Virus record (IMG/VR): IMGVR_UViG_3300047284_000486
Span: 1-25,488 of that record
Length of the DNA stretch: 25,488 bases
Source: a virus
Direction: 5' to 3' (one strand)
This document shows, piece after piece, positions 1,339 to 25,138 of the stretch. Positions within the stretch are counted from its first letter, which is position 1, and each line of letters starts with the position of its first letter. The position numbers and the translations under genes are program-made. A model generated the notes under the pieces. That model had not been told where the DNA came from. It did no database searches and saw only the letters and a program-made list of their open reading frames with translations.

Positions 1339-2937
1339 ATGGATTTGGGAGACCTTCTCAACGAGAAGGAGTGGCGAAAATGCAAAGGTGCGGACACAGG
1401 AAGTGTTGATGACGCACTTGAGGCGTTCGAATACTTTTGTTCAACCTACTGGTTTATTCGCCACCCTGAGCGGGGGCGTATCAAGTTTGTGTTGCGTGAA
1501 GCGCAACTTGAAACTGCACGGAACTGGATGGAGCATCGTTATACGATTGTGTTGAAGGCACGCCAGATTGGGTTTTCTACTTTGGCTGCAGCGTTTGTGT
1601 TTTGGGAAGCGTTCTTTTGGTCTGACCGTTTTATTGTGATGTTGTCGCGCACAGAACGTGAGGCATCGAAACTGTTGCAAAAAACGAAGTACGGCTACAA
1701 GATGTTGCCGCAGTGGATGAAGGTTCGTGGACCAGATGTGCTGGTTGATAACCAGTTGAAGATGGTGTTTTCTAACGAGTCATCTGTTGAGTCGCTGCCG
1801 AGCGGCAATGACCCGGCGCGCGGTGAAGCGGTGTATCGGGTGGTGATTGACGAAATGGCGTTTCTGCCGAACCCTGATGAGGCGTGGGCTTCTATTGAGC
1901 CGATTGCTGACGTTGGTGGTCGTGTCATCTGTTTGTCCACCGCGAATGGTGAGGGCAACATTTTCCACGACTTGTGGGTTGGTTCCCAAACAGGAACCAA
2001 CAGGTTCGTCGGTATCTTTTTCCCGTGGTCGGCGGGTGAACGTGACGAGGAATGGTATGAAGCGAAACGTCGCGACCTGCCAGACTGGCAGTTGGCTCAA
2101 GAGTACCCGTCCGACCCCGACGAAGCCTTTATTCGTTCTGGTCGCCCTGTGTTTGATTTGGAGGTGTTGCGAAGCCTTGAGGTTGTTGAACCGCATCGCG
2201 GTTACCTGCATAAGATGCCCGGTAGAGGTGTATACGAGTTTCGTGAAGATGGTGGCGAGTTTTGTGTGTGGGATTTTCCGCAACTTGGCGAGGTGTATGT
2301 TGTGGGCGCTGACGTTGCTGAAGGTTTGGGGTATGGAGACTATTCGTCTGCTCATGTCATCAACGCTTCAACTGGTGAGATTGTTGCGCATTGGCACGGA
2401 CATATTGACGCAGACTTGTTCGGGGAAGAGGCGTTGTATGCGATTGGGTGGTGGTACAACAAAGCGCTTGTGGGTGTCGAGTCCAACAACCACGGTTTGA
2501 CAACCCTGAAAGGGTTGCAGCGTGTCGGCTACAAGAATCTGTTTAGGCAACGCAGGTTGGGTCAACGCAACCCTACGGTGTCTGAGACGTTGGGGTGGCG
2601 TACGACGAGTGTGTCCAAGCCGTTGGCTATTGACGAGTTATCTGCCGCGATTCGCGATGAGGTGTTGTGGTTGGGATGCAAAGAAACGGTTGCCGAGTTG
2701 CGTACGTTTGTGCGTGAAGAGAACGGCAAGATGCATGGTTCTCCGCATGATGACAGGGTGATGTCTTTGGCGATTGCGAATCAGATGTTGAAGTATGTGT
2801 GGCTTCCTGAGTACAGGTCGTCGGATACGGCTAAGGCAAATACGTTGCAGTGGTGGGAATCTAGGATTATTCGCGAAAGTAAGCCAAATAGGGAGCCGAT
2901 TGGGTCCCATAACGTGAGAAGTAGCAGTTTGGGCTAA
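1339..2937 (+). CDS. terL: Terminase large subunit (DNA-packaging ATPase/nuclease)
   Basis: The 532-residue product carries the full motif set. The Walker A-type sequence KARQIGFST is at residues 73-81, Walker B VVIDE at 168-172, and the coupling motif STAN at 200-203. The C-terminal RNase H-fold nuclease has acidic residues in GADVAEG (D325), GVESNNHG (E381) and HDDRVMS (D471/D472). It drives DNA into the prohead through the portal and cuts concatemers. The start follows the previous stop directly and has a purine-rich AAAGAGG ribosome site six bases upstream. No small terminase subunit is visible nearby. It may lie left of the window or be too divergent to recognise. Confidence 0.95.
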   Translation: MDLGDLLNEKEWRKCKGADTGSVDDALEAFEYFCSTYWFIRHPERGRIKFVLREAQLETARNWMEHRYTIVLKARQIGFSTLAAAFVFWEAFFWSDRFIVMLSRTEREASKLLQKTKYGYKMLPQWMKVRGPDVLVDNQLKMVFSNESSVESLPSGNDPARGEAVYRVVIDEMAFLPNPDEAWASIEPIADVGGRVICLSTANGEGNIFHDLWVGSQTGTNRFVGIFFPWSAGERDEEWYEAKRRDLPDWQLAQEYPSDPDEAFIRSGRPVFDLEVLRSLEVVEPHRGYLHKMPGRGVYEFREDGGEFCVWDFPQLGEVYVVGADVAEGLGYGDYSSAHVINASTGEIVAHWHGHIDADLFGEEALYAIGWWYNKALVGVESNNHGLTTLKGLQRVGYKNLFRQRRLGQRNPTVSETLGWRTTSVSKPLAIDELSAAIRDEVLWLGCKETVAELRTFVREENGKMHGSPHDDRVMSLAIANQMLKYVWLPEYRSSDTAKANTLQWWESRIIRESKPNREPIGSHNVRSSSLG

Positions 2938-12141: not shown

Positions 12142-13332
12142 ATGGCTGACGGGCAGATAAACCCATACGACTTCTTGTCGCTTGTTGCAGCCCAATCTGC
12201 TGCCCAAAAAAATCCGACCCAAAGCGGCATCAATCGTCTATTCATGCCAGAAATTGGGGTACTGACGGGCACATTCTACGGTGACACTGGCGGTGTTTCG
12301 CAGCAGCAGGAAGCCGCAACGATGCTGCAGTTGGCTCCCGATATTCTCCGAATCTCAAACATTGCTCAAAGCAACCCAGATGATATTCGTGCGCAGATTG
12401 CGCGCAAGATTGTGTACGAAAAACAACCCGTGTGGGAAGTAAAGCGTCTTATTCAGAAGTATGTTTTGGATGCGTCTGCTGCGGGTGAGGATATTGATAC
12501 GGCTGCGACATCAACGGAGTTGATGGCTTTTGCTGACAAGATTCAGAATCAAAGCGATGCTCTTGATGCAAGTTATGCGAAGGCTTCCATCACCAAAGGC
12601 AATGATGTTTTTTCGCAGGCTGGTTTGCCTTCGCCGCAGGAAAGGTTTTCGCCAGACCAGTTGTTGCCCGAGTTTTTTGCAAAATATGCGACTGGAACTC
12701 AGGAGCGCCAAAGCAAACTTGATGCCCTAAAACGTAATCAATCGGCTCGTTCTGCTGCCGTAAAGTTTTTGGGCGACCAGTCGGGAACAGTTGATGTTCG
12801 TTCTGCTGAGTTGCCAAAGTATGAAACGCCGGGATATTTTGATTCGGACCGCAGAACAAAAGAGGGTTTGAAGTCAACATCGCAAGAAATTGAACGTTTG
12901 CAAAGCGATTATCAAAAGGCTTTGGCTGATTTGAACCGCGTAACAAAATCGTATAAGCCGCTTTCGAAGGGAAGCATGACCCAGCAGCAGGCTATTGCCG
13001 CCGCCCAGAAACGTGTTGATGCAACAAAGAAGTTGTTTGATGACAGGTTTGCTGCAGCCAAAGAACGAGGAATGTACAGCCCAGCAAAAATGGCTCAAAC
13101 CGGTGCACAGGATGTTGAAACAATTCGTTTCAAGGAAATTGCTAGTCGGGCAGCAGCCAGACCAGACACAAGTGCGGAGCGTTTGGATTTGGTCAAGCGA
13201 CAGAAGTATGAAGACGATGTGGCCGCTGCGGTTGCCCGAAAGATTTCGGAACAAGCAACTTCTATTGGTTATACGCCATTGATTCAGGCTTTGATGACTC
13301 GTGCAAATTTTGTTGGTTTGGGCGGTAGTTGA
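12142..13332 (+). CDS. Helical internal virion protein candidate (396 aa)
   Basis: The product begins MADGQINPYDFLSLVAAQSA and has an early beta/loop region (MPEIGVLTGTFYGDTGGVS), then long helices with coiled-coil character (TSQEIERLQSDYQKALADLN and neighbours). It ends in IGYTPLIQALMTRANFVGLG. There is no transmembrane segment or catalytic motif that I can recognise. It is the last gene before the giant one and overlaps it by three bases (TGATG), which suggests translational coupling and a shared complex. A 21-base gap separates it from the poly-Lys gene, with no strong ribosome site visible there. Confidence 0.5.
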   Translation: MADGQINPYDFLSLVAAQSAAQKNPTQSGINRLFMPEIGVLTGTFYGDTGGVSQQQEAATMLQLAPDILRISNIAQSNPDDIRAQIARKIVYEKQPVWEVKRLIQKYVLDASAAGEDIDTAATSTELMAFADKIQNQSDALDASYAKASITKGNDVFSQAGLPSPQERFSPDQLLPEFFAKYATGTQERQSKLDALKRNQSARSAAVKFLGDQSGTVDVRSAELPKYETPGYFDSDRRTKEGLKSTSQEIERLQSDYQKALADLNRVTKSYKPLSKGSMTQQQAIAAAQKRVDATKKLFDDRFAAAKERGMYSPAKMAQTGAQDVETIRFKEIASRAAARPDTSAERLDLVKRQKYEDDVAAAVARKISEQATSIGYTPLIQALMTRANFVGLGGS

Positions 13333-16300
13333 TGGCTGCCGTTGCTGGCGGTCAAAACTTTGACGAGTTGCTGAAGCGACTCGCCAAAGTAAAACCGCTT
13401 CCGGGTTCTTCCGCAGACGCATCTGGGTTTGTCACCCAGCAGATGAGTACTGGTTTGGATTTGCGTGATTCGGTAATCAACTCATTCCGAAATTCTGGTG
13501 GTTTGGATTACCAACAAATTAGAGATGTGGCTGCCGGTGGGTCTCCCGTTACTTCTGGTCCGCGTGGGTTGCTTGCTTCCACGTTGAATAGCGCACCCGC
13601 AAAGGCTGTTTTGAATGGTTTGAATACCATTGGCGTTCCGATGCGTCTTGTCAACAGCACGCTGAAGGAAGTGAAAGATGCTTTGGATAGCGACCCGAAC
13701 ACGAAAGCGGGTTGGAATGATTACTGGAAGCAAGTAAAGGACCCAACTTTCGGCTTTGGTCGAGTGGTGCCGATGAAGGGTTGGGGTGGGCGGCTTATTG
13801 GTTTTGCTGGCGATTTGATTACAGACCCAATCAACTGGCTGACTTTGGGTTCCGCTGGCGCTTTGCGCACAGCGGGTAATCTTGGGGCGCAGGGGGCTTT
13901 CCGTGCTGGTGTTCGGGAATCTTTGGAGGCATCTGGTCGTTTGAGTGCTGGCGCTGTTGGCAAAACGTCGTTGCGTGAAACTTTGGGTGTTCGCACTCTT
14001 GCCGGTGCGGATGGAAGATTTGCTTTGGCTGAAGAAGTTCGCCGTTTGGGCGGAACTGCTAGCGAAGTTGCTGGGGTTGCCGCAAGAGGAAAACTTGCCG
14101 TACCAAAAGATATTGCCGAGGTTATGGGTTTGGGCAAGTCGGGCATTTATGTTGCGGGCACAAAGGTTCGTCTGCCGGGTTCGGGTTTGCTGTCGGAGAT
14201 GACGGAAAAAACTTTGACGAAGATGCGTCTTGGTGTTTTGCGTTCTGGTGTTGGCGACATTTTGCAGCGCGCTTTTACGCGCCGCGGTGTTGCGGCAGAC
14301 ACAAAGCGGTTCAGAATGCTTCTTTCAAAAGGCATGCTGCCAGACGATGAGGTGCAACTTGCAACAATGCTGCTGAACTCGGACACAAGGTTCCGTGCTG
14401 CGGCAAACATTGCACGCGAGTCAACAAAACGCAGAGTGATTGATTACGCCGCAGACGCAGATGTGGATGCAACACGCAACACCGTGTATCGGGTCATGGA
14501 GAACCCTGATGGTGTTGTGGCATCCGAGGCTGAACGTAGGGCTGCCGAGAAGATTCGCAATTTCTTTATGACCGAGTTGGATTTTGCCAACAAGCGTTTC
14601 AAGGCAGTTGATGATGGGTATATTCCAAGAAGTTTGAACAACTTCCTTCCACACGTGTTGAGCGATGCAGCAAAAGCGGAGTTTGATAAGGCATACGCAA
14701 ATCCAGCGTTGGAACAGGTTCTGACCTATTTGAAAGTGAATCCTTTGGAGGCTCAGGGTTCGTTCAAGCACCGCTTTATTACTGCTGACCAAGAGTTCCT
14801 TGGCGTTCCCGGAAGCGTACACAAGGGGACTATTGACGGAATCAATGCGGTGACTCGTGAAAAACTTGGATTTGATTTGTTTGAAACTGACGTCATCAGA
14901 ATGATGACGAAGTATGCCGACACGATTGGTGGTGCTGCCGGAAGCGCAGAAATGATGCGACTGATGAAGGAGTCGCGTTTCCTTTTGGATGCTCGCAGGG
15001 TTGCGGCGATTGACCCGCAGTGGATGCTTGACGCAAAGAACGGTTTGGCTGTGGTGACCAAGTCGCTTCACGATGAGGGCGGGGCTTTGGTTGATTCTGT
15101 TGAGTCTGTTATTGGTCGAATGGAGAAATCGTTTGATGACGGTGCGCTTGGTCAGATGGTTGGTCGCGAAACTGCTGCTGCACAAAAAGAACTCAACGAA
15201 ATTGGCAAGGGTTTGGGTAAGCCAGTAAAGAATTTCATTGATGAGCCAATAACTTTTGTTGACTTTGAGGGCAATACGTATCGCCCAAGCGACATGAATT
15301 TGTTGTTGCGCGTTGACGCTGAGCGTCAAGCGCTGATTGACGCGGTGAACAAATTCAACCTCAAGCAGGCAGAATTTTCTGCCCTGTTTGCTCCCGATGG
15401 TGGGGGCGAGATGAACATGATTCATCAGATTCTGACATCCGAACACAAGCGGCTTACCGACGCCTTTGATGCGGCGCAAGCAAAACTATTTGCCTTGCGT
15501 CAAGGCATTGCCGAGGGCAAGGAAACCACAGAAACACTCCAAGCATTGCGTGTTCAGTCCAAGGAGGCTTTGAAGGCTGCACGTGAGGCAACGAAGAAGT
15601 ATTCTGGCACATTGCGAGATTACGAGTTTTGGGCAGATGATTTTGGCACTTGGATGCAGGAGTCGCTGAAGCGTGTTGGTCAATTGCGTGAAGACATAAC
15701 CCGCGACCCGGTCACCGGCAACATTCTGGAGAAGTCGCTTATTCCTGTGCGCGGTCGAAGTTTGGTTCCAGAAGATGTTTCTTCGGAAACAAAAGAAGTT
15801 CTCACCCGCATTATTGATGCGGAAGAACGCAAAATTCTTCCACCGGGCATGGGTTTGAACGAAAACTGGTTGAGTCAAACATTTGGAAACAATTCCGACC
15901 CAAGCCTTTCCAAACAGTTGCTTATTGAAACCGCCCCACAACTGGTTGGTCAACCGGCGCGAATCAACCAAATTACTTCGCAGTCCGTTACGCAATCGGT
16001 AATCAGGGGTCTTACATCGGCAGACAATATTGAGCAATTGTCCGATTCGTTTGGGTGGATGACAATTCGACTTCTGAAAGAAGCAGAACGTCGTGGCGGT
16101 GTTGAAGCGCGAGAAGCGTTGGCGCGACAATTGGCTGAGGGTGTTGGTGGTATCGGTCAGATGTGGCAACGTGCCAAAAAGCAGGTCGACATCCTTGACT
16201 CTGTGTACGACACGATTTCTCTTGTTGCGAGACGGAAGCCGACTGCCGCTATCAAGGAATTTGGGAAACAGGCTGTTGATGTTTCCGAACAAATTGCCGC

Positions 16301-19300
16301 GCTCACGCGGCAAATTGATTCGGCTAACGAAAAGATTCTGGAACTGTCAAAGTCGACTAGCGGAAATATTGGTTTGGCTGCAAGGGAAATGTTGAGTGAC
16401 CTTGACGATTTCGCAGCATCAACATTTAGGACTGCGGACACAATAACTCAAGAAAGTCTTGACGAATATATTGCTCGCGTTGACGCTGTGTTTGATGGCT
16501 TTGTTGAGCAGGGAATTGTTCGCGAGGAAGAGATTTTCAATTTGCGCGCTGTCGCAACTTTTCAGTTGCGCCAAGGTTTTGTCACCGGCGACGTAAACAG
16601 AAACACGCTCAATGAATACAGAAACATTCTCAACGATGAATTGGGCACACACATTGACGGATTCATGCTCAAAAACAGAAAGACCGCCAATCAGCGTTCA
16701 ATGGCCGAAATTGGTGGTCTGCAAAAAACTATCCGAGAAAACCAGCAGAAGATTGATAAATTGCTGAAAAGCGATTCTGGCGACAATGATTATGTGAAAT
16801 ATACGGTTGCCGCTTTGTCGGGCGATTTGCGCACACAGGTCTCTGCTGTTGCTGAAACTCTTCAGGAATACCAGATATTCAATGAAGCGTATTTTTGGTT
16901 TTCCGCTTTTCAAAATCTTGCACCAGCAGGCGTCGTTATCCCAGAAACAGTGTGGTCGCACCTGCTCGCGTCAACGGCAGAAACACAATACGACGCTATT
17001 CAGCAGGGTCTTGATGATGCCATGCGAGCCAGAGAACTTGCTTTTGAAATGTGGAACGGAAGCATTTCCAAGTTGCCAAAACCAGAGCAGGCAAATGCTC
17101 TTGCGTTGGCGGTTGAATCATTGCCGATGGAAGATAGGCGGTTGATGAACCGATTTTTCGGTACATTGATTAGCGGTCAAGAATACAAAGAAATTAGCGA
17201 CCTCGACCGCGTGGTCCGTCAGGACCCGCGGTACACGCAGTTGCTGAATGAAATTGCGGACGTTGTTACTGGTAGGGCAACTCGCGCTGGTTCGCTGGCA
17301 CCCGGTGTTGTGGGCGGCTTGGGGGCTGCTGGTCGAGAGGCTGCTCCGCAAGCCGTAACATCAGGAAGAGTAAACGCTTCGTTGCTCATTGCTGACATTA
17401 GGAACGAATCTTCGTTGAAAAAAGTTAGAGGGTTGTTGACAACAACACACAAACGAACTGGGGCAAGATTTGGCGATGGCTCACTTGTGCAGAAGAAATG
17501 GCTAACGCAGAAAGAGGCTGAGGATTTTCTTGTTCGATTGCAGGATTTGGAAGTTGATGCACGCTTGCGGGTAAAAGAAATTACCGCAATGGTAAAAGAG
17601 AATTCCAAGTCCAAGAATAAGCGTCAGATGCAGGCGGAGATTCGTGGTGACGAATTTGGTTTGAGCGGATTGTTTAGGGCTGCCACCCAAAGCCGTGCCA
17701 ATGGTACGGGAGCAAGGGTTAGCGAATGGTTTGCTCGTGCAATCGGTGGAGGAAAAACAGCGGAGGAAGCCAAGGCTCTTGGTTCCCGTGTTTACACAGG
17801 CGTTGGCGGCAAGTATCGCACGACGGGCACATTCGCAATCAACCAATACGGTAACTCTGGTGACATCATCATGGGTGGAACGTTTGCTAATGTCACGGGA
17901 GATATCGAAAAACCTTTGGCTCGGCAGTACAAGTACATCACCGAATCAGAGTCGCACTATGGACAGGCATACGACCGTCTTGCTAAGCGCAAGACTGCTT
18001 TGCGCGCATTGATGCGTGACTCAACCGTCAGTGAAGAAATTGCGGTCGGCAGACTTCCTGACGGAACTCTGATTGATGAAAGAGGGAATGCGATTGTTGG
18101 TCGCGTGGACACGGAGGGTGTGCTCGGACCGATGAGTTATATCATTGCCTTGGAGGGTCAACTTGACGAGTATCGTCAAGCACTCAAGCAATTCGGCATT
18201 GACGACATGGAGTTCAAGAAAATCAAAGCGCTTGAAGATGGGGCTTTCAAAGTCAAGAGTCGTGCAACTGCAGCAGAAAAAGAAATTGCGAGACTTCAGC
18301 AGGAAGATTACGAATTGTTCAAGGCTTCTCGCGACCCACAACAGGTCGCCTACATTCAAGCGATTCTTCGCGGCGAGTACGACGAGCCGCAGCCAGCAAA
18401 CCTGCACCCAAAGGTTCGGGATGCAGTTCAAGGACTAATTGAATCACGTAGGACTCAAGAAAAGATTGAATCGACTCGTGGCTATTTGAGTTCGATTGAT
18501 AGGCGTTCTTTGCACAAATTCATCAAGCATCTTGCTGGATACAACTTGGGACACAATACGGATACCGGAATGGGTGGTTTGCGTGAGTTGTCATCGCGTG
18601 TTGTGAATCCGAACGCGCCACAAAAGAGATTGTATACGTCTGTTGAGTTTGCCAATTTGAAGAAGTTTGCGCAAAGAATTGCCGAACAGCAAATCAATAC
18701 TCCCGAAGGATTCATAAAAGGCACCCCTGACTTTATTCTTGTCAAAGCAACAAGGGCACCATTTGTGCCAGAAGAGGCTGCCCAAATAATTGCTTCACGT
18801 AGAAACGACTACATTTTCATAAAGGACAATTTTAGATTCACCGACGAAATGCTTGCTGCGTTTTTGTCGGCAAACAAAAACGCCAATCTGCCAGAAAATC
18901 AACTTGCTTTGGTCCGCAGGGCGATTGACGATAGGACTGTTGATATCTGGAAAGCAGATACCACCGCGCCGCTGAGGTATGGGGATGCGTTTGACCCAGA
19001 GGAAACACTTGCGGTGTTGACAATAACAAGCACCGGGGACACCAGAATTTTCAACGGCACCGATGTCTTTGGATATTCTGCGCCGGTCAGGGATACGACC
19101 ACATTCCCGACGATGGAGATTGATGGCGTCACCATTCCCATCACTTTTGACGAGTTGGAATGGGACCAGTTGTTTGCCAAGCCAATGGATGTTCGTCAGG
19201 TTCGCAATAAGTTGGCAGCAAAAGAAGCCGAACGAAAGAAGTTGTGGTCTACCACGTTTGGCACAAATGAAAAGAAGATGGCAAAGTTGGATAAACTTGA

Positions 19301-22172
19301 CGCCGAAATTGAGGACTTGAAGATTCAAATTGTTCGCAATGATGCGAACAAACAAATGGAAATGGTCCGCCGTGCCCGCGCAATGCGAAACTACTTTGAC
19401 CAACCAGACGTCAAGAAGAAACTTGGTTTGAAGGCTGACGCATCACCAGAAAAAACTTTTGACCAATGGGCTGACATGAATGCAAAGAACATGTCAATTC
19501 GCGACACGCCTCAATTTGTTGAGGACCGCGTAAAAGAATTAGACAACGCTTGGGATAGTTCGTACGAGGCAAAGGTTATTTCGGAGCATCGCGCGGCGAG
19601 CACAAAGGCAAAGAACTCTGCCATGACATTGCAGACTGCTTTGGCTGGGGGAAGGGCGGCTTGGCTTGCCGACAAGGTAAATGCCATCGAGATTGCCCGT
19701 CAACGTAGTTTGGAAAAGGCTGGACAGTCGGTTGAAGAGGCATTGAAGAGGTTGGAGCGTTTTGCCGTTCAAATTGTTTCAAGGGAAAGTTCTGTTGCTT
19801 CGGAGATTGCTGCGCAAAAACTGAATGTGAAAGTCGAGAGTCTTGCGGAACTGCTTCGCGACCCGGCATTCCGACCGGGCGCTTTGAATCAGGTGATGAC
19901 TGAATACGACAAGGCAATCAATGAAATAGTAAAGAAGTCTGGTTTGATTGAATCGGATTTGTTTGGTCCATCTGGTTTGCTCAGGTCGGTAACTGGAGAA
20001 GAAATTGTTACCGGTCAGGTTCAAAATGTGCACGCCGAAAAGATTATGGATGCGCTTGACGCAAGAGCCAAAGTCATCCGCGAATCAATTGAAAAGGGTT
20101 TGCGCAAGCCTGCTTCTGCTGCCGCAGCGCAGGCGGAACGCGCTGGTGCTGCTGCGCGCGAAGGAAACGTTCAGTTGTATGGTGCTGAACTTTACGATAG
20201 AACGATTCGGTCGGAGGTCGCGGCAAATACTGTTCAGTTGAAGAACTGGGAGAGGGCAGTGAAGGAGGCTCAAACGGCTGCAGAACTGACAGAGAAAGAA
20301 CTTAGGCAGTTTGAGGCAGCGGTTCTAAGCGGCAAGGAACCCAAGGCAAAAAGCCTCGGCTATGTTCGTGAGTATTATCGCGCCAAGAAGAACGCTCAGC
20401 GTGCAGCCGAAGGCGCACGCCAAGCATCGGATGCGCTTGAAGCATCTATGGCTAGGTTTGATTCCGCAATGTCTGCGTTCCAGAATCGTGGCGTCACAAG
20501 ACTGCGTGCCACAGAAGCGTATTCACGTGCACAGAACTTGAAGAAGTTGCGCAACAGCATGGATGCCTCCATCAAGAAGATGAAGGATGACAAGATTCTC
20601 AACACTGAGTTTGACGAATTTGGCGACAGCATTGAACGCCTGTTTGAAGAGTTGAACAAGATGGCTAAGTTCGGTGACGAGATTGATGAGATTTCCGCTC
20701 TCCGCGGTGTGCTCGTTCAGTATCAGGAACAGCGTGCGGACTGGTTGATTCGTTATCAGCAGCAGGCTGACACAAGGGCAAGAATCAAAGTTGTTGAGGA
20801 TGCATCAAAGACGATAAAGGATTTGGGTCCGTTGGCTTACTTGAATCCAGTGCTAACCGAAACGAATGCTTTTACGTTGGTGAACAAATTAGAGAAGGGT
20901 TTTGTTCAGTTTGGTGAACAATTCCCCAACCTAATGGCTGACCCGAGGGTCATGGAGATTTTTGAGAATGCCCACAGGTTGCGTGACCCAGCGTTTGCGC
21001 GTGCCGCGCAACGCTTCATGGGTCCGTACACAAAGTTCTTCAAGGCTTGGGCTGTTGCTACGCCGGGTTTCCATGTGCGCAACTCTTTCAGCAACGGATT
21101 CATGTTGTTTGCTGCTGGCGGCAGACCAGACAGCCTGTATCGAGGGCTGTTGGCGTTCAGGGCGCTGAAAGAAGCGATTGACAAGGGCGAATCTTTTGAG
21201 ACACATGTTGCCAAATTGTCCGCAGAGGAACAGGTTCGAGTTCGTGGTGCGTATTTTGCGATGATGGGTTCTGGTGGCGGTTTGATGTCTGATGTCGATT
21301 TGTCTACGGGTAGCAGATTGTATGCAAACAAGTTCACCAAGAAGTTGCAAAAGTTGGGTATTGCGGCGGACAATCACGCACGGTTCATGTTGGCTTACGA
21401 TGGCATGGACAACGGAATGGATGCTCTCACTGCTGCTGCCCGTGTGAAGCGGTTTATGGTTGACTACGAGGACACTTCGGTGGCTGATGCGTATATGCGT
21501 CAGATTATGCCGTTCTGGATGTGGACAAGCCGCAACCTGCCGCTTCAGATTCAGAACATTTTCTTGAACCCGAAGGCGTACCGTTTCTACACGGCGATGA
21601 GCAACAACTTCCGCGACGAAGATGAGACAAACAAGTTGCCGAAGTATTTGCGTGAAGTTGGTGCGTTTGCTTTGCCGGGTGGGAAAACCTATTTTTCTCC
21701 AGACCTACCATTTAGTCGTGTCGGTCAACAGATTGAGCAGATTCAGTCGCCTCGTCGCCTTGCTGCCGACGTGAACCCGCTGTTGCGGGTTCCGTTGGAG
21801 GTGATGCTTTCAAACAAGAAGTTCTATTCCGATATTCCATTCAAAGAGGGGCTACAGAAAGCCGATGGTCCAGTCGCTAATCTTGCTTCGTATCTTGCTC
21901 AGCCGTTCGGTCAGGGTGGGACAATGAAAGACGGTGGCAGGGGTGTCACCGACAAGGCGATGTACTCGCTGATGAACTACATTCCGATTGCTGGACAGTT
22001 TGAACGTCTGGTTCCGTCAACCGAAACATATCAGTCAAGACCGGGGTCAACACGTTTGGCGCAATACTTTGGTGTTCCCGTTCGCGAAATGACCGACCAG
22101 ATGAAGCAGCAGGAGTTGCAACGAAGGTTATACGAAATCAATGCACTACGAAGACAGCAGGGGCAGCAATGA
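13332..22172 (+). CDS. Giant structural/ejection protein candidate (2946 aa)
   Basis: This one continuous frame of 8.8 kb has no stop or obvious frameshift and starts at ATG 13332, overlapping the previous stop. Residues 148-190 carry MKGWGGRLIGFAGDLITDP, then INWLTLGSAGALRTAGN, a Gly/Ala-rich hydrophobic segment seen at the front of very large phage proteins. Residues of about 600-2450 are long charged helices. The C-terminal 400 residues are more conserved-looking: ATPGFHVRNSFSNGF near residue 2575 and QIMPFWMWTSRNLPLQIQN near 2725. This 'PGFHxRN ... PFWxWxxxNLP' pair recurs in large actinophage and other phage virion proteins, from memory. No lysozyme, protease or polymerase motif is evident. 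Position after three helical genes and size suggest the main internal protein that exits into the host envelope ahead of DNA, as podovirus ejection proteins do. Confidence 0.65.
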   Translation: MAAVAGGQNFDELLKRLAKVKPLPGSSADASGFVTQQMSTGLDLRDSVINSFRNSGGLDYQQIRDVAAGGSPVTSGPRGLLASTLNSAPAKAVLNGLNTIGVPMRLVNSTLKEVKDALDSDPNTKAGWNDYWKQVKDPTFGFGRVVPMKGWGGRLIGFAGDLITDPINWLTLGSAGALRTAGNLGAQGAFRAGVRESLEASGRLSAGAVGKTSLRETLGVRTLAGADGRFALAEEVRRLGGTASEVAGVAARGKLAVPKDIAEVMGLGKSGIYVAGTKVRLPGSGLLSEMTEKTLTKMRLGVLRSGVGDILQRAFTRRGVAADTKRFRMLLSKGMLPDDEVQLATMLLNSDTRFRAAANIARESTKRRVIDYAADADVDATRNTVYRVMENPDGVVASEAERRAAEKIRNFFMTELDFANKRFKAVDDGYIPRSLNNFLPHVLSDAAKAEFDKAYANPALEQVLTYLKVNPLEAQGSFKHRFITADQEFLGVPGSVHKGTIDGINAVTREKLGFDLFETDVIRMMTKYADTIGGAAGSAEMMRLMKESRFLLDARRVAAIDPQWMLDAKNGLAVVTKSLHDEGGALVDSVESVIGRMEKSFDDGALGQMVGRETAAAQKELNEIGKGLGKPVKNFIDEPITFVDFEGNTYRPSDMNLLLRVDAERQALIDAVNKFNLKQAEFSALFAPDGGGEMNMIHQILTSEHKRLTDAFDAAQAKLFALRQGIAEGKETTETLQALRVQSKEALKAAREATKKYSGTLRDYEFWADDFGTWMQESLKRVGQLREDITRDPVTGNILEKSLIPVRGRSLVPEDVSSETKEVLTRIIDAEERKILPPGMGLNENWLSQTFGNNSDPSLSKQLLIETAPQLVGQPARINQITSQSVTQSVIRGLTSADNIEQLSDSFGWMTIRLLKEAERRGGVEAREALARQLAEGVGGIGQMWQRAKKQVDILDSVYDTISLVARRKPTAAIKEFGKQAVDVSEQIAALTRQIDSANEKILELSKSTSGNIGLAAREMLSDLDDFAASTFRTADTITQESLDEYIARVDAVFDGFVEQGIVREEEIFNLRAVATFQLRQGFVTGDVNRNTLNEYRNILNDELGTHIDGFMLKNRKTANQRSMAEIGGLQKTIRENQQKIDKLLKSDSGDNDYVKYTVAALSGDLRTQVSAVAETLQEYQIFNEAYFWFSAFQNLAPAGVVIPETVWSHLLASTAETQYDAIQQGLDDAMRARELAFEMWNGSISKLPKPEQANALALAVESLPMEDRRLMNRFFGTLISGQEYKEISDLDRVVRQDPRYTQLLNEIADVVTGRATRAGSLAPGVVGGLGAAGREAAPQAVTSGRVNASLLIADIRNESSLKKVRGLLTTTHKRTGARFGDGSLVQKKWLTQKEAEDFLVRLQDLEVDARLRVKEITAMVKENSKSKNKRQMQAEIRGDEFGLSGLFRAATQSRANGTGARVSEWFARAIGGGKTAEEAKALGSRVYTGVGGKYRTTGTFAINQYGNSGDIIMGGTFANVTGDIEKPLARQYKYITESESHYGQAYDRLAKRKTALRALMRDSTVSEEIAVGRLPDGTLIDERGNAIVGRVDTEGVLGPMSYIIALEGQLDEYRQALKQFGIDDMEFKKIKALEDGAFKVKSRATAAEKEIARLQQEDYELFKASRDPQQVAYIQAILRGEYDEPQPANLHPKVRDAVQGLIESRRTQEKIESTRGYLSSIDRRSLHKFIKHLAGYNLGHNTDTGMGGLRELSSRVVNPNAPQKRLYTSVEFANLKKFAQRIAEQQINTPEGFIKGTPDFILVKATRAPFVPEEAAQIIASRRNDYIFIKDNFRFTDEMLAAFLSANKNANLPENQLALVRRAIDDRTVDIWKADTTAPLRYGDAFDPEETLAVLTITSTGDTRIFNGTDVFGYSAPVRDTTTFPTMEIDGVTIPITFDELEWDQLFAKPMDVRQVRNKLAAKEAERKKLWSTTFGTNEKKMAKLDKLDAEIEDLKIQIVRNDANKQMEMVRRARAMRNYFDQPDVKKKLGLKADASPEKTFDQWADMNAKNMSIRDTPQFVEDRVKELDNAWDSSYEAKVISEHRAASTKAKNSAMTLQTALAGGRAAWLADKVNAIEIARQRSLEKAGQSVEEALKRLERFAVQIVSRESSVASEIAAQKLNVKVESLAELLRDPAFRPGALNQVMTEYDKAINEIVKKSGLIESDLFGPSGLLRSVTGEEIVTGQVQNVHAEKIMDALDARAKVIRESIEKGLRKPASAAAAQAERAGAAAREGNVQLYGAELYDRTIRSEVAANTVQLKNWERAVKEAQTAAELTEKELRQFEAAVLSGKEPKAKSLGYVREYYRAKKNAQRAAEGARQASDALEASMARFDSAMSAFQNRGVTRLRATEAYSRAQNLKKLRNSMDASIKKMKDDKILNTEFDEFGDSIERLFEELNKMAKFGDEIDEISALRGVLVQYQEQRADWLIRYQQQADTRARIKVVEDASKTIKDLGPLAYLNPVLTETNAFTLVNKLEKGFVQFGEQFPNLMADPRVMEIFENAHRLRDPAFARAAQRFMGPYTKFFKAWAVATPGFHVRNSFSNGFMLFAAGGRPDSLYRGLLAFRALKEAIDKGESFETHVAKLSAEEQVRVRGAYFAMMGSGGGLMSDVDLSTGSRLYANKFTKKLQKLGIAADNHARFMLAYDGMDNGMDALTAAARVKRFMVDYEDTSVADAYMRQIMPFWMWTSRNLPLQIQNIFLNPKAYRFYTAMSNNFRDEDETNKLPKYLREVGAFALPGGKTYFSPDLPFSRVGQQIEQIQSPRRLAADVNPLLRVPLEVMLSNKKFYSDIPFKEGLQKADGPVANLASYLAQPFGQGGTMKDGGRGVTDKAMYSLMNYIPIAGQFERLVPSTETYQSRPGSTRLAQYFGVPVREMTDQMKQQELQRRLYEINALRRQQGQQ

Positions 22173-23209: not shown

Positions 23210-23375
23210 GAGTCTTCCCTCCTTTGTTGTGAATGTAGATGGTGTTCTCTGGTAGACCATTGACTGTGACACCTTGACCCATCTCCACGTCATCAAAATG
23301 CGCAGCAAGAATTTTGACAATCTTCGCCACATCAATCGCCCTGTCGAATCCCAGTGTCACCTGCCGAAAAGACAT
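23190..23375 (-). CDS. Small protein of unknown function (61 aa)
   Basis: The start at 23375 is supported by an AGGAG site six bases upstream (23382-23386). The product reads MSFRQVTLGFDRAIDVAKIV, then KILAAHFDDVEMGQG, and ends HNKGGKTRVSRKR: an alpha/beta-looking core with a basic tail. It overlaps the upstream gene by 44 bases and the downstream one by 20 bases, large for this phage. It is accepted because of the ribosome site and its regular composition. The function is unknown. Confidence 0.55.
   Translation of the reverse strand: MSFRQVTLGFDRAIDVAKIVKILAAHFDDVEMGQGVTVNGLPENTIYIHNKGGKTRVSRKR
23217..23225 (-). promoter_or_regulatory. Ribosome binding site fixing GTG start at 23209
   Basis: AAAGGAGGG on the minus strand, seven bases before the GTG. 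It lies inside the coding end of the preceding gene and argues against longer or shorter starts. Confidence 0.75.
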
Positions 23376-24216
23376 CTTCCTCTCCTAGTTCTAGTTTGAA
23401 TGTTTCATCGAGCACCATCAGCCCGATGACGCAATATCCTACGATGTCAACGAGTGTATCAATGAACGATTCGTTGATACGTGGGCTGGTTGCCTTGCCT
23501 TCTTTCAAGAACATTCTGGAGAACTCTAGGTTGGCGAGACGCTCATACTTGTCGTTGAGTCGCACGATGATGCCTTTGATTCCGAACCTGTCAATGTTCT
23601 TGTGTCCATAGTCGTGTTGTTTGCTGGACAGCAGGTGAGCCATTCTGCCGGTATCCCATTCGTCAAGACTTCTGAGATAGGAGATGACTGGTGATGCGAC
23701 TACGACGAACGCATTGGCGTTCGGTTCGGAGTCGTTGTGGAAGGTGATGCCGATGAGCGCATCAATCCTGTCACGCAACGCACCAAAGTCAAGTGTGTCT
23801 GTTGCGCCAGAGATTGACGCAAGATGACCGCACCATTGTGCTGCTGATTGTCCCCAAGTTTTAGCCATGTCGTACTTCTTTCTGATGAGTGGATTCATTT
23901 CTAGTTTACTTCGCAGATTCTTGTAGGCGGTGTCGCGTATGCGCATAATGTGTACGTCGGAGTAGCCAAGGATTTTTCCTGCGGCACGCAGCGACTTGGA
24001 TTCGTGTAGTAGAAGTTCAATGACTTTGCGTTGCCTTTCTGGCAACGCCATGACTGCTTCCACTACGGCTTCACGCAGTTCGCTGATGTCTTCGGAGTGT
24101 GGCGGCTCTTCACCGGGTTTCATTTGCATCAGCACTTCCAACGCTGATGACGGTTCGTGGCTGGATTCCATTCTGTCGAACACATCGGTGCGAAACAGAA
24201 TGTGTTTTTTAGCCAT
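23332..24216 (-). CDS. Sigma-70 region 4-like HTH fused to DUF1599-like domain
   Basis: I chose the start at 24216 (MAKKHILFRTDVFDR), which overlaps the upstream stop by eight bases; a 10-residue extension lies in the other gene. Residues 46-105 match sigma-70 region 4: VVEAVMALPERQRKVIELLL, then KSLRAAGKILGYSDVHIMRI and AYKNLRSKL. Residues of about 185-272 resemble DUF1599, the nucleotide-modification-associated domain: KQHDYGHKN (199-207), FGIKGIIVRLNDKYERLANL (211-230) and ESFIDTLVDIVGYCVIGLM (249-267). The DUF1599 type is an all-helical, MazG-like group linked to phage nucleotide metabolism. The first domain would bind DNA or RNA polymerase. No region 2 is present, so this is not a complete sigma factor. 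The fusion is unusual; both domain calls are by motif only. Confidence 0.65.
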   Translation of the reverse strand: MAKKHILFRTDVFDRMESSHEPSSALEVLMQMKPGEEPPHSEDISELREAVVEAVMALPERQRKVIELLLHESKSLRAAGKILGYSDVHIMRIRDTAYKNLRSKLEMNPLIRKKYDMAKTWGQSAAQWCGHLASISGATDTLDFGALRDRIDALIGITFHNDSEPNANAFVVVASPVISYLRSLDEWDTGRMAHLLSSKQHDYGHKNIDRFGIKGIIVRLNDKYERLANLEFSRMFLKEGKATSPRINESFIDTLVDIVGYCVIGLMVLDETFKLELGEEDVFSAGDTGIRQGD

Positions 24217-24640
24217 CGTATTTTTCGTCGTACAGAAGCGACGCAACGTCTGCTGGTTTCAGCAGGTAGCCCCACGCAGGGTTGTCTGAGTTTCGTGCGA
24301 AGTCACGGGTGTCAAGCGTGTCTCGGTTGATGTCAATGAAACGCTTCAGCCTGTCTACGGACACGATGACGAAACCGCCATCCATTGAGAAGATGTACAC
24401 CCACCATTTTGCTTTGGTGACCTGTAGCCCTGAGCGAATCCATTTGCCGCATCGGCGTGGGTTCTGGCGCATCTCAACAGCCATGTTGCCGTTGCGGTAG
24501 CGGTCAGACTTCACCTCGAATGAACCTTCAACGAGACTCTCCAACATTTTGCGGATTCGTTTCTCGCCCAACTGACCGTACTTCAGGTCTTTGTCAAAGT
24601 TGAATGTGTTGGATTCGATATCCCATTTACTGTTCTTCAT
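24209..24640 (-). CDS. PDDEXK-type nuclease-like protein (143 aa)
   Basis: The start at 24640 (MKNSKWDIESNTFNFDKDLK) follows the preceding zinc-ribbon gene with a 14-base overlap. Motifs fit a small restriction-like nuclease: LGEKRI with E26, SFEVKSDRYRNGNMAVEM with E42-x-K44 and E56, then IRSGLQVTKAKWWVYIF. A pattern of EVK-D, N-VE and SG-x-T-KA-WWVY recurs in phage-encoded PDDEXK proteins involved in DNA end or host DNA processing. Catalysis needs two metal-binding acids; E26 and E42 are candidates with K44. The exact substrate is unknown. Its neighbours (resolvase, replication protein) suggest DNA metabolism. Confidence 0.5.
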   Translation of the reverse strand: MKNSKWDIESNTFNFDKDLKYGQLGEKRIRKMLESLVEGSFEVKSDRYRNGNMAVEMRQNPRRCGKWIRSGLQVTKAKWWVYIFSMDGGFVIVSVDRLKRFIDINRDTLDTRDFARNSDNPAWGYLLKPADVASLLYDEKYDG

Positions 24641-24797
24641 TGAGTGTCTCCCATGACGCCTGCGAGAAGCCTCGCACGCGACCATCTGGCTGGATGTACA
24701 CCCATTGTGGTGCGTCTGGGTCGCAGTTGCAGCCTGCGACGTTTCGTTTGTCGTGCACAACGATTGTTTGGCAGTGGTTGCATCTGATTTTGGTCAC
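24627..24797 (-). CDS. Small zinc-ribbon protein (56 aa)
   Basis: A short frame starts with GTG at 24797, overlapping the RusA stop as GTGA, with GAGG five bases ahead, and stops TAA at 24627-24629. The product opens MTKIRCNHCQTIVVHDKRNV, has a second pair in AGCNCDPD and ends PDGRVRGFSQASWETLNEEQ. The CxxC...CxC set suggests one zinc site. It fills what would otherwise be a 150-base gap in a gapless operon, and the overlaps at both ends support it. The function is unknown. Confidence 0.7.
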   Translation of the reverse strand: MTKIRCNHCQTIVVHDKRNVAGCNCDPDAPQWVYIQPDGRVRGFSQASWETLNEEQ

Positions 24798-25138
24798 GAT
24801 TTCCTCACGGTCACTTCAACGATTTGGCTGTCGTCTTCCCACGCTACACCATTGAGCGCATCAAGAATGGACTTGGCGTAGTTATCTACATCGCCACGCA
24901 ACTGATGCTTGTAGTTCTTTTTCTTGGTTCCCGTGATGACGATTGTTGAGCCTTCAAGGTTGCACACGACTGAAACTTCAAGCAGATACGACTCATCAAA
25001 GAACGGTCCTTTGTACGCTGCAGCGACCTGCTTTTCGTAGTTCGCTGTGCGTTTCGGTGTGTAGACGTGACCGGTGCGGGTTGCTCGTGGTCGTTCTTTG
25101 GCTAGTGGGCGAACCTTGATGAGTTGTTTCCACTTCAT
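24794..25138 (-). CDS. rusA: RusA-like Holliday junction resolvase
   Basis: Starting at 25138 (MKWKQLIKVRPLAKERPRAT), which overlaps the preceding stop as ATGA, the product is 114 residues, close to the usual RusA size. The RPRATRTGHVYTPKRTANYE opening and the RGDVDNYAKSILDALNGVAW core with D83/D85, K89 and D93, then EDDSQIVEV with D102/D103, match the RusA signature (D-x-D-N-x-x-K ... D, then DD). RusA cuts four-way junctions during recombination and before packaging. Its place in the leftward operon beside a nuclease-like and a replication-type gene is consistent with this. It is translated with its neighbours through four-base overlaps. Confidence 0.9.
   Translation of the reverse strand: MKWKQLIKVRPLAKERPRATRTGHVYTPKRTANYEKQVAAAYKGPFFDESYLLEVSVVCNLEGSTIVITGTKKKNYKHQLRGDVDNYAKSILDALNGVAWEDDSQIVEVTVRKS

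Follow-up and report, generated by a model that had tools for sequence, protein, structure and literature searches.

A sigma-70 region 4-like helix-turn-helix domain fused to or encoded beside a DUF1599 domain forms a conserved and apparently undescribed partnership in phages

Does a phage protein that joins a sigma-70 region 4-like helix-turn-helix (HTH) to a DUF1599 domain reflect a true partnership between the two domains, and what might such a protein do? The question is raised by a gene in IMG/VR virus record IMGVR_UViG_3300047284_000486, of which we analysed one stretch of 25,488 nucleotides (the window). The gene is a 294-aa open reading frame on the minus strand, with its ATG at 24216 and its TGA at 23332-23334 (Table 1). 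Its product carries the HTH at residues ~46-107, followed by an all-helical, C-terminal DUF1599/Nmad1 domain at residues ~119-280. The original prediction, which gave no strand, had called one 294-residue protein with an HTH at residues 46-105 and DUF1599 at 185-272; the open reading frame is single and intact, and profile and structure matches bore out both domain identities and their boundaries. That prediction had also considered that the junction might be a frameshift between two genes. The uninterrupted two-domain architecture is kept in relatives at 97%, 55-58%, 40%, and 31% identity, and comparison with the fusion gene of contig L001 gave a dN of 0.015 and a dS of 0.162 (dN/dS ~0.09), with purifying selection in all three segments of the gene (HTH, middle, and core). 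Because the relatives at 97% and 55-58% identity retain the whole architecture and dN/dS is well below 1, a frameshift artefact or two-gene chimera was ruled out.

Table 1. Features of the fusion gene and of its operon neighbours in the window (residue numbers refer to the 294-aa protein).
Feature	Position	Strand	Basis or remark
HTH-DUF1599 fusion gene, 294 aa	23332..24216	-	Open reading frame and full-length relatives
Short E-x-L-M motif preceding the HTH, residues 27-30	24127..24138	-	Alignment of HTH proteins
Sigma70_r4-like helix-turn-helix, residues 57-102	23911..24048	-	PF04545, NCBIfam, PDB, structure model
Start of recognition helix, residues 86-92	23941..23961	-	Family pattern S/T-K-x-H-x-W-R; window S-D-V-H-I-M-R
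N-terminal helical subdomain of the C-terminal part, residues 119-185	23662..23862	-	Also opens stand-alone 163-178-aa DUF1599 phage proteins
DUF1599/Nmad1 core, residues 186-280	23377..23661	-	PF07659, phrog_1485, profile comparison, invariant residues
phrog_13596 gene, ~143 aa, upstream in operon	24209..24640	-	3' end shares 8 bp with start of fusion gene
RusA-type Holliday junction resolvase, 114 aa, same operon	24794..25138	-	PF05866, 1.3e-20

The assignment of the HTH rests on several independent comparisons. Its Pfam Sigma70_r4 score of 25.8 bits exceeds the gathering threshold of 24.1, and NCBIfam and PDB sequence comparisons identified residues ~33-109 as a FliA/WhiG-type sigma region 4. 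The HTH part of the full-length AlphaFold model matched sigma region 4 domains in the PDB with a Foldseek probability of 1.0 and a target TM of up to about 0.8-0.9, none of these matches having an E-value <0.001. Region 4 is thus shared with the sigma-70 family in sequence and in predicted fold, whereas regions 2 and 3 are absent; no match to sigma region 2 was found in the fusion protein with Pfam, NCBIfam, or PHROGs, as had been anticipated. PF04545 was matched by 38 of the 41 HTHs of the family, and their PHROG matches were to sigma factors (39/41), to the "transcriptional regulator" phrog_36 (35/41), and to a "late transcriptional activator" (7/41). Residues L29/M30 of the motif preceding the HTH are retained in about 90% of the 41 proteins, fused and split. 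Most of the HTH domain is variable; in the recognition helix, conservation is 85% for K87, 66% for H89, 71% for W91, and 83% for R92. When aligned by eye, the residues at the positions that contact the −35 element (K/D-x-H-x-W/M-R) differ from those of sigma-70, and the target DNA sequence of this family is therefore likely to be distinct. The r4 core of the window protein has a pI of 10.1, and 13 of 14 HTH proteins of the split form are acidic (pI 4.6-6.0).

For the C-terminal domain, PF07659 scored the window protein at 19.1 bits, below its cut-off of 25, but phrog_1485 covers residues 190-280 at 4e-13. Compared with some relatives (L008, L009), the window protein has about nine extra residues in the loop ahead of the helix bearing E249, a possible cause of the low PF07659 score. 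PF07659 matched all 24 related phage contigs with homologues, 17 of them above the cut-off, and hhalign gave a probability of 95.5% for the match between a profile of 89 DUF1599 sequences and the Bacteroidetes tandem DUF1599 proteins. Eleven residues are invariant in the 89 domain sequences (K199, D202, Y203, D222, K223, R226, E249, D253, D257, G260, and Y261), and most of them are charged or polar. The phage domain has the motifs K-x2-D-Y-G, D-K-x2-R, and E-x3-D-x3-D-x2-G-Y in common with DUF1599 (PF07659; phrog_1485). It differs in the added three-helix N-terminal subdomain and the HTH, whereas bacterial DUF1599 proteins are ~95-aa single or ~190-aa tandem forms without an HTH. The Nmad names reportedly go back to the base-modification paper of Iyer et al. 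from 2013.

AlphaFold predicted an all-helical DUF1599 domain with a mean pLDDT of 89.8, and this model had no significant fold neighbour in the PDB. In the viral structure library BFVD the model retrieved members of the same family, plus weak hits to entries for MazG and dATP/dGTP diphosphohydrolase. One entry, A0A6J5QFU4, is a 273-aa protein of an uncultured Caudovirales phage named after Gp74 of Clostridium phage phiCTP1; its C-terminal domain, to which the comparison applies, is 47% identical (TM 0.80), and its length suits the fused form. We rejected a MazG-type NTP pyrophosphatase assignment given an hhalign probability of 0.4-0.6% and the missing PDB fold match; the weak BFVD matches leave it as a distant prospect.

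We used an HMM of the HTH family to ask how often the two domains occur together. Among 90 viral DUF1599 loci (610 kb), 43 encode fusions, 25 have an HTH gene directly before the DUF1599 gene and in the same orientation, 2 are truncated, and 20 are without the HTH; no further match to the HTH family was found anywhere in these loci. As the HMM was made from members of the same locus set, the informative part of this result is the absence of matches elsewhere. As a second, independent test, 25 contigs were scanned in full with PF04545; 24 had matches, and except for one weak match in a giant open reading frame all of these fell within the DUF1599 gene or just ahead of it, which amounts to one sigma region 4 signal per phage contig. 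In the split form a ~104-134-aa HTH gene comes first and is followed by a ~163-178-aa DUF1599 gene, the two abutting or, mostly, overlapping by a few bases. One such pair lies in the Manatee Spring podovirus (MW202803.1, 17293-18289; L128, 5304-6300), where the HTH gene and the overlapping DUF1599 gene are unannotated in the public record. When mapped onto a DUF1599 domain tree, the fused state requires five changes, at least three of them on well-supported branches, with gains and losses indistinguishable.

Since the HTH and DUF1599 are fused or side by side across dozens of related phages, the two parts almost certainly work together, and a widespread module that is repeatedly fused or split is stronger evidence for this than a fusion in one phage would be. 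A search of one paper library found no description of an HTH-DUF1599 fusion; the conserved partnership, although built from known domains, is apparently undescribed. The 20 of 90 viral loci without the HTH family indicate that DUF1599 can also work without it. Lineages of this kind still keep DNA-related company, the upstream gene encoding a C5 cytosine methyltransferase in L084 and DNA polymerase A in L088. In L094 (2090-2482) and L102 (2235-2675), the second gene upstream of DUF1599 encodes a protein that combines a helicase-associated (HA) domain with a Sigma70_r4/Mor-like HTH tail scoring below threshold, possibly an independent pairing of DUF1599 with a transcription-type HTH.

The surroundings of the gene in the window are those of a replication operon. 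The RusA neighbour that had been predicted was confirmed by Pfam, but the label "PDDEXK-like" given to the gene next to the fusion was not: its sole match in Pfam and PHROGs is phrog_13596, which has no assigned function. Phages with the module typically encode, in order, a DnaB-like helicase (preceded by an exonuclease in some), a primase (AEP), RusA, the phrog_13596 protein, HTH-DUF1599, and sometimes one or two small open reading frames. The fusion gene is therefore the last gene, or nearly so, of the early replication operon, and the late genes on the opposite strand converge on it, with endolysin-like, giant virion protein, structural, portal, and large terminase genes beyond the module. 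The large terminase gene (window 1339-2937) is far from the fusion gene. The giant plus-strand open reading frame of the window (13329-22172, 2947 aa) had no match in Pfam or PHROGs and probably encodes a virion protein. In a near-identical relative of the window phage (L195, 13827-16430), the early operon starts with an amidoligase-like gene followed by a gene with a weak match to class-II glutamine amidotransferase.

The last or nearly last place in the early operon is also that of Ltr late activator genes (PMC13123087). The split HTH proteins resemble the Ltr/ArpU/RinA late regulators of Gram-positive phages in size (~105-135 aa), in a gene position that follows RusA and closes, or nearly closes, the early module, and in matching phrog_36 and late activators among the PHROGs. 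Ltrs, however, are small basic proteins, whereas 13 of the 14 split HTH proteins are acidic; unlike an ltr gene, which sits directly upstream of the promoter that it activates, the fusion gene converges with the late genes; and the HTH is fused to or paired with DUF1599. With size and position in agreement and charge and place relative to the target promoter in disagreement, we describe the protein as working somewhat like an Ltr and do not assign it to that family. Scans for regulatory signals gave no convincing operator repeats around the divergent early/late region or the convergent end of the near-identical relative, and promoters and terminators predicted at the end of the window did not stand out from those in shuffled sequence. 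A search for a T7-type RNA polymerase (PF00940) was without a match in phage contigs and controls alike and so does not speak for its absence.

Bacterial DUF1599 genes provide a second context. The locus L110 (2987-6333) encodes, by Pfam, HMUDK_hel, a thymidylate-synthase-like protein, DUF1599, a ThsB-like TIR protein, and Nmad2. By gene size and order the same module is present in L109, L112, L119, L120, L121, and L122, and L115 has a rearranged version partly recognized by Pfam. This module is probably a defensive nucleotide-modification island. Bacteroidetes chromosomes (L163-L173, L188-L193) encode a tandem protein of ~185 aa with two DUF1599 domains, near genes for triosephosphate isomerase, a MauE-like protein, and a pterin-binding enzyme of the dihydropteroate synthase family (neighbours checked in L191). 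The 25 phage contigs, several of which are fragments, lack both PF00303 (thymidylate synthase/dUMP-hydroxymethylase) and PF18723 (5-hmdU DNA kinase). Thymine hypermodification was therefore rejected as a candidate for these phages, in which base modification has no support.

The reading that we favour, tentatively and with a little less than even confidence, is that of a phage transcription regulator that binds a promoter or RNA polymerase and has DUF1599 attached as a nucleotide-handling partner. We infer the transcription role from the matches of the HTH to Sigma70_r4, PHROG sigma factors, phrog_36, and late activators, and the nucleotide role from the invariant charged residues and the bacterial neighbourhood of DUF1599. 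The N-terminal half would mimic sigma region 4, its target being promoter DNA, the surface on host RNA polymerase normally contacted by region 4, or both. The DUF1599 domain would handle a nucleotide or nucleoside phosphate and touch its partner within one chain in the fused form and in a complex in the split form. Made last or nearly last in its operon, such a protein would fit a role in switching host polymerase between the early and the late transcription programme of the phage, in response to nucleotide state. Several observations weigh against this reading: no operator or target promoter was found, the late genes converge instead of lying downstream, the split HTH proteins are mostly acidic, DUF1599 has no known ligand or catalytic activity and its model no solved fold neighbour, and 20 of the 90 viral loci do without the HTH family. 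A stricter version, in which DUF1599 binds or hydrolyses nucleotides and directly controls the sigma-region-4-like domain, such that the nucleotide pool gates polymerase takeover within one protein, seems rather unlikely to us.

The original prediction had offered either a nucleotide-sensing regulator or a modification enzyme tethered to transcription or replication, and of these the DNA-modification half is weakened by the missing PF00303 and PF18723 matches. An HTH that just brings a nucleotide- or base-processing enzyme to DNA or to the replication or transcription machinery, with regulation not the main job, would account for the enzyme-like set of invariant residues, for the methyltransferase and polymerase genes next to phage DUF1599 genes in L084 and L088, for the thymidylate-synthase-like and HMUDK_hel genes beside bacterial ones, and for the place of the gene within a replication operon. 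We nevertheless consider it fairly improbable, as the 25 phage contigs encode neither thymidylate synthase/hydroxymethylase nor 5-hmdU kinase, the MazG idea failed profile comparison (probability below 1%), and DUF1599 is without a known activity. It is also unlikely that the protein appropriates host RNA polymerase by the logic of AsiA/MotA. Its r4-like domain would then stand in for region 4 of the host sigma factor, silencing or diverting host transcription with no need for a DNA sequence of its own. A region 4 fold without region 2 and the acidity of most split HTH proteins, which suits protein contacts, are what such a mimic would lead one to expect, but K87, H89, W91, and R92 of the recognition helix are among the most conserved positions of the HTH, and the basic r4 core of the window protein suits contact with DNA.

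Two further explanations appear much less probable. A small-terminase-like or other packaging or replication accessory would use the HTH for DNA and the helical C-terminus for oligomerisation, in keeping with an HTH on an all-helical body and with Paenibacillus phage API480, in which a stand-alone DUF1599 gene directly precedes the large terminase gene. The distance between fusion gene and large terminase gene in the phage family of the window, and invariant charged residues that exceed the needs of oligomerisation, make this very unlikely. Least probable of all is a role in counter-defence, in which the protein would act on a signal nucleotide or a modified one produced by host defence, the HTH controlling its own expression. 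Short bacterial DUF1599 genes do occur in the TIR- and Nmad2-containing module, and a validated defence system combines thymidylate synthase, 5-hmdU kinase, and a nucleotide-modification domain, whose Nmad type is not clear from the text (PMC13092281). Most sampled phages of the group, however, keep the gene in the replication operon, which is unusual for counter-defence genes, and no direct link to defence was found.

The transcription regulator with a nucleotide-handling partner thus remains our preferred reading. DUF1599/Nmad1 is widespread, in phages, on Bacteroidetes chromosomes, and in a TIR-containing nucleotide-modification module, and to our knowledge no activity has been assigned to it. 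A partner that is repeatedly fused, or otherwise encoded by an overlapping gene, links the domain to a sigma-like domain and makes its function testable. If DUF1599 acts within a one-protein switch, this would be its first function, as the sensor-effector partner of a sigma-like HTH. Should the HTH instead bring an enzyme to DNA, the module would point to unknown nucleotide chemistry, and if transcription is regulated by nucleotide state, it would represent a new timing mechanism for phage gene expression.
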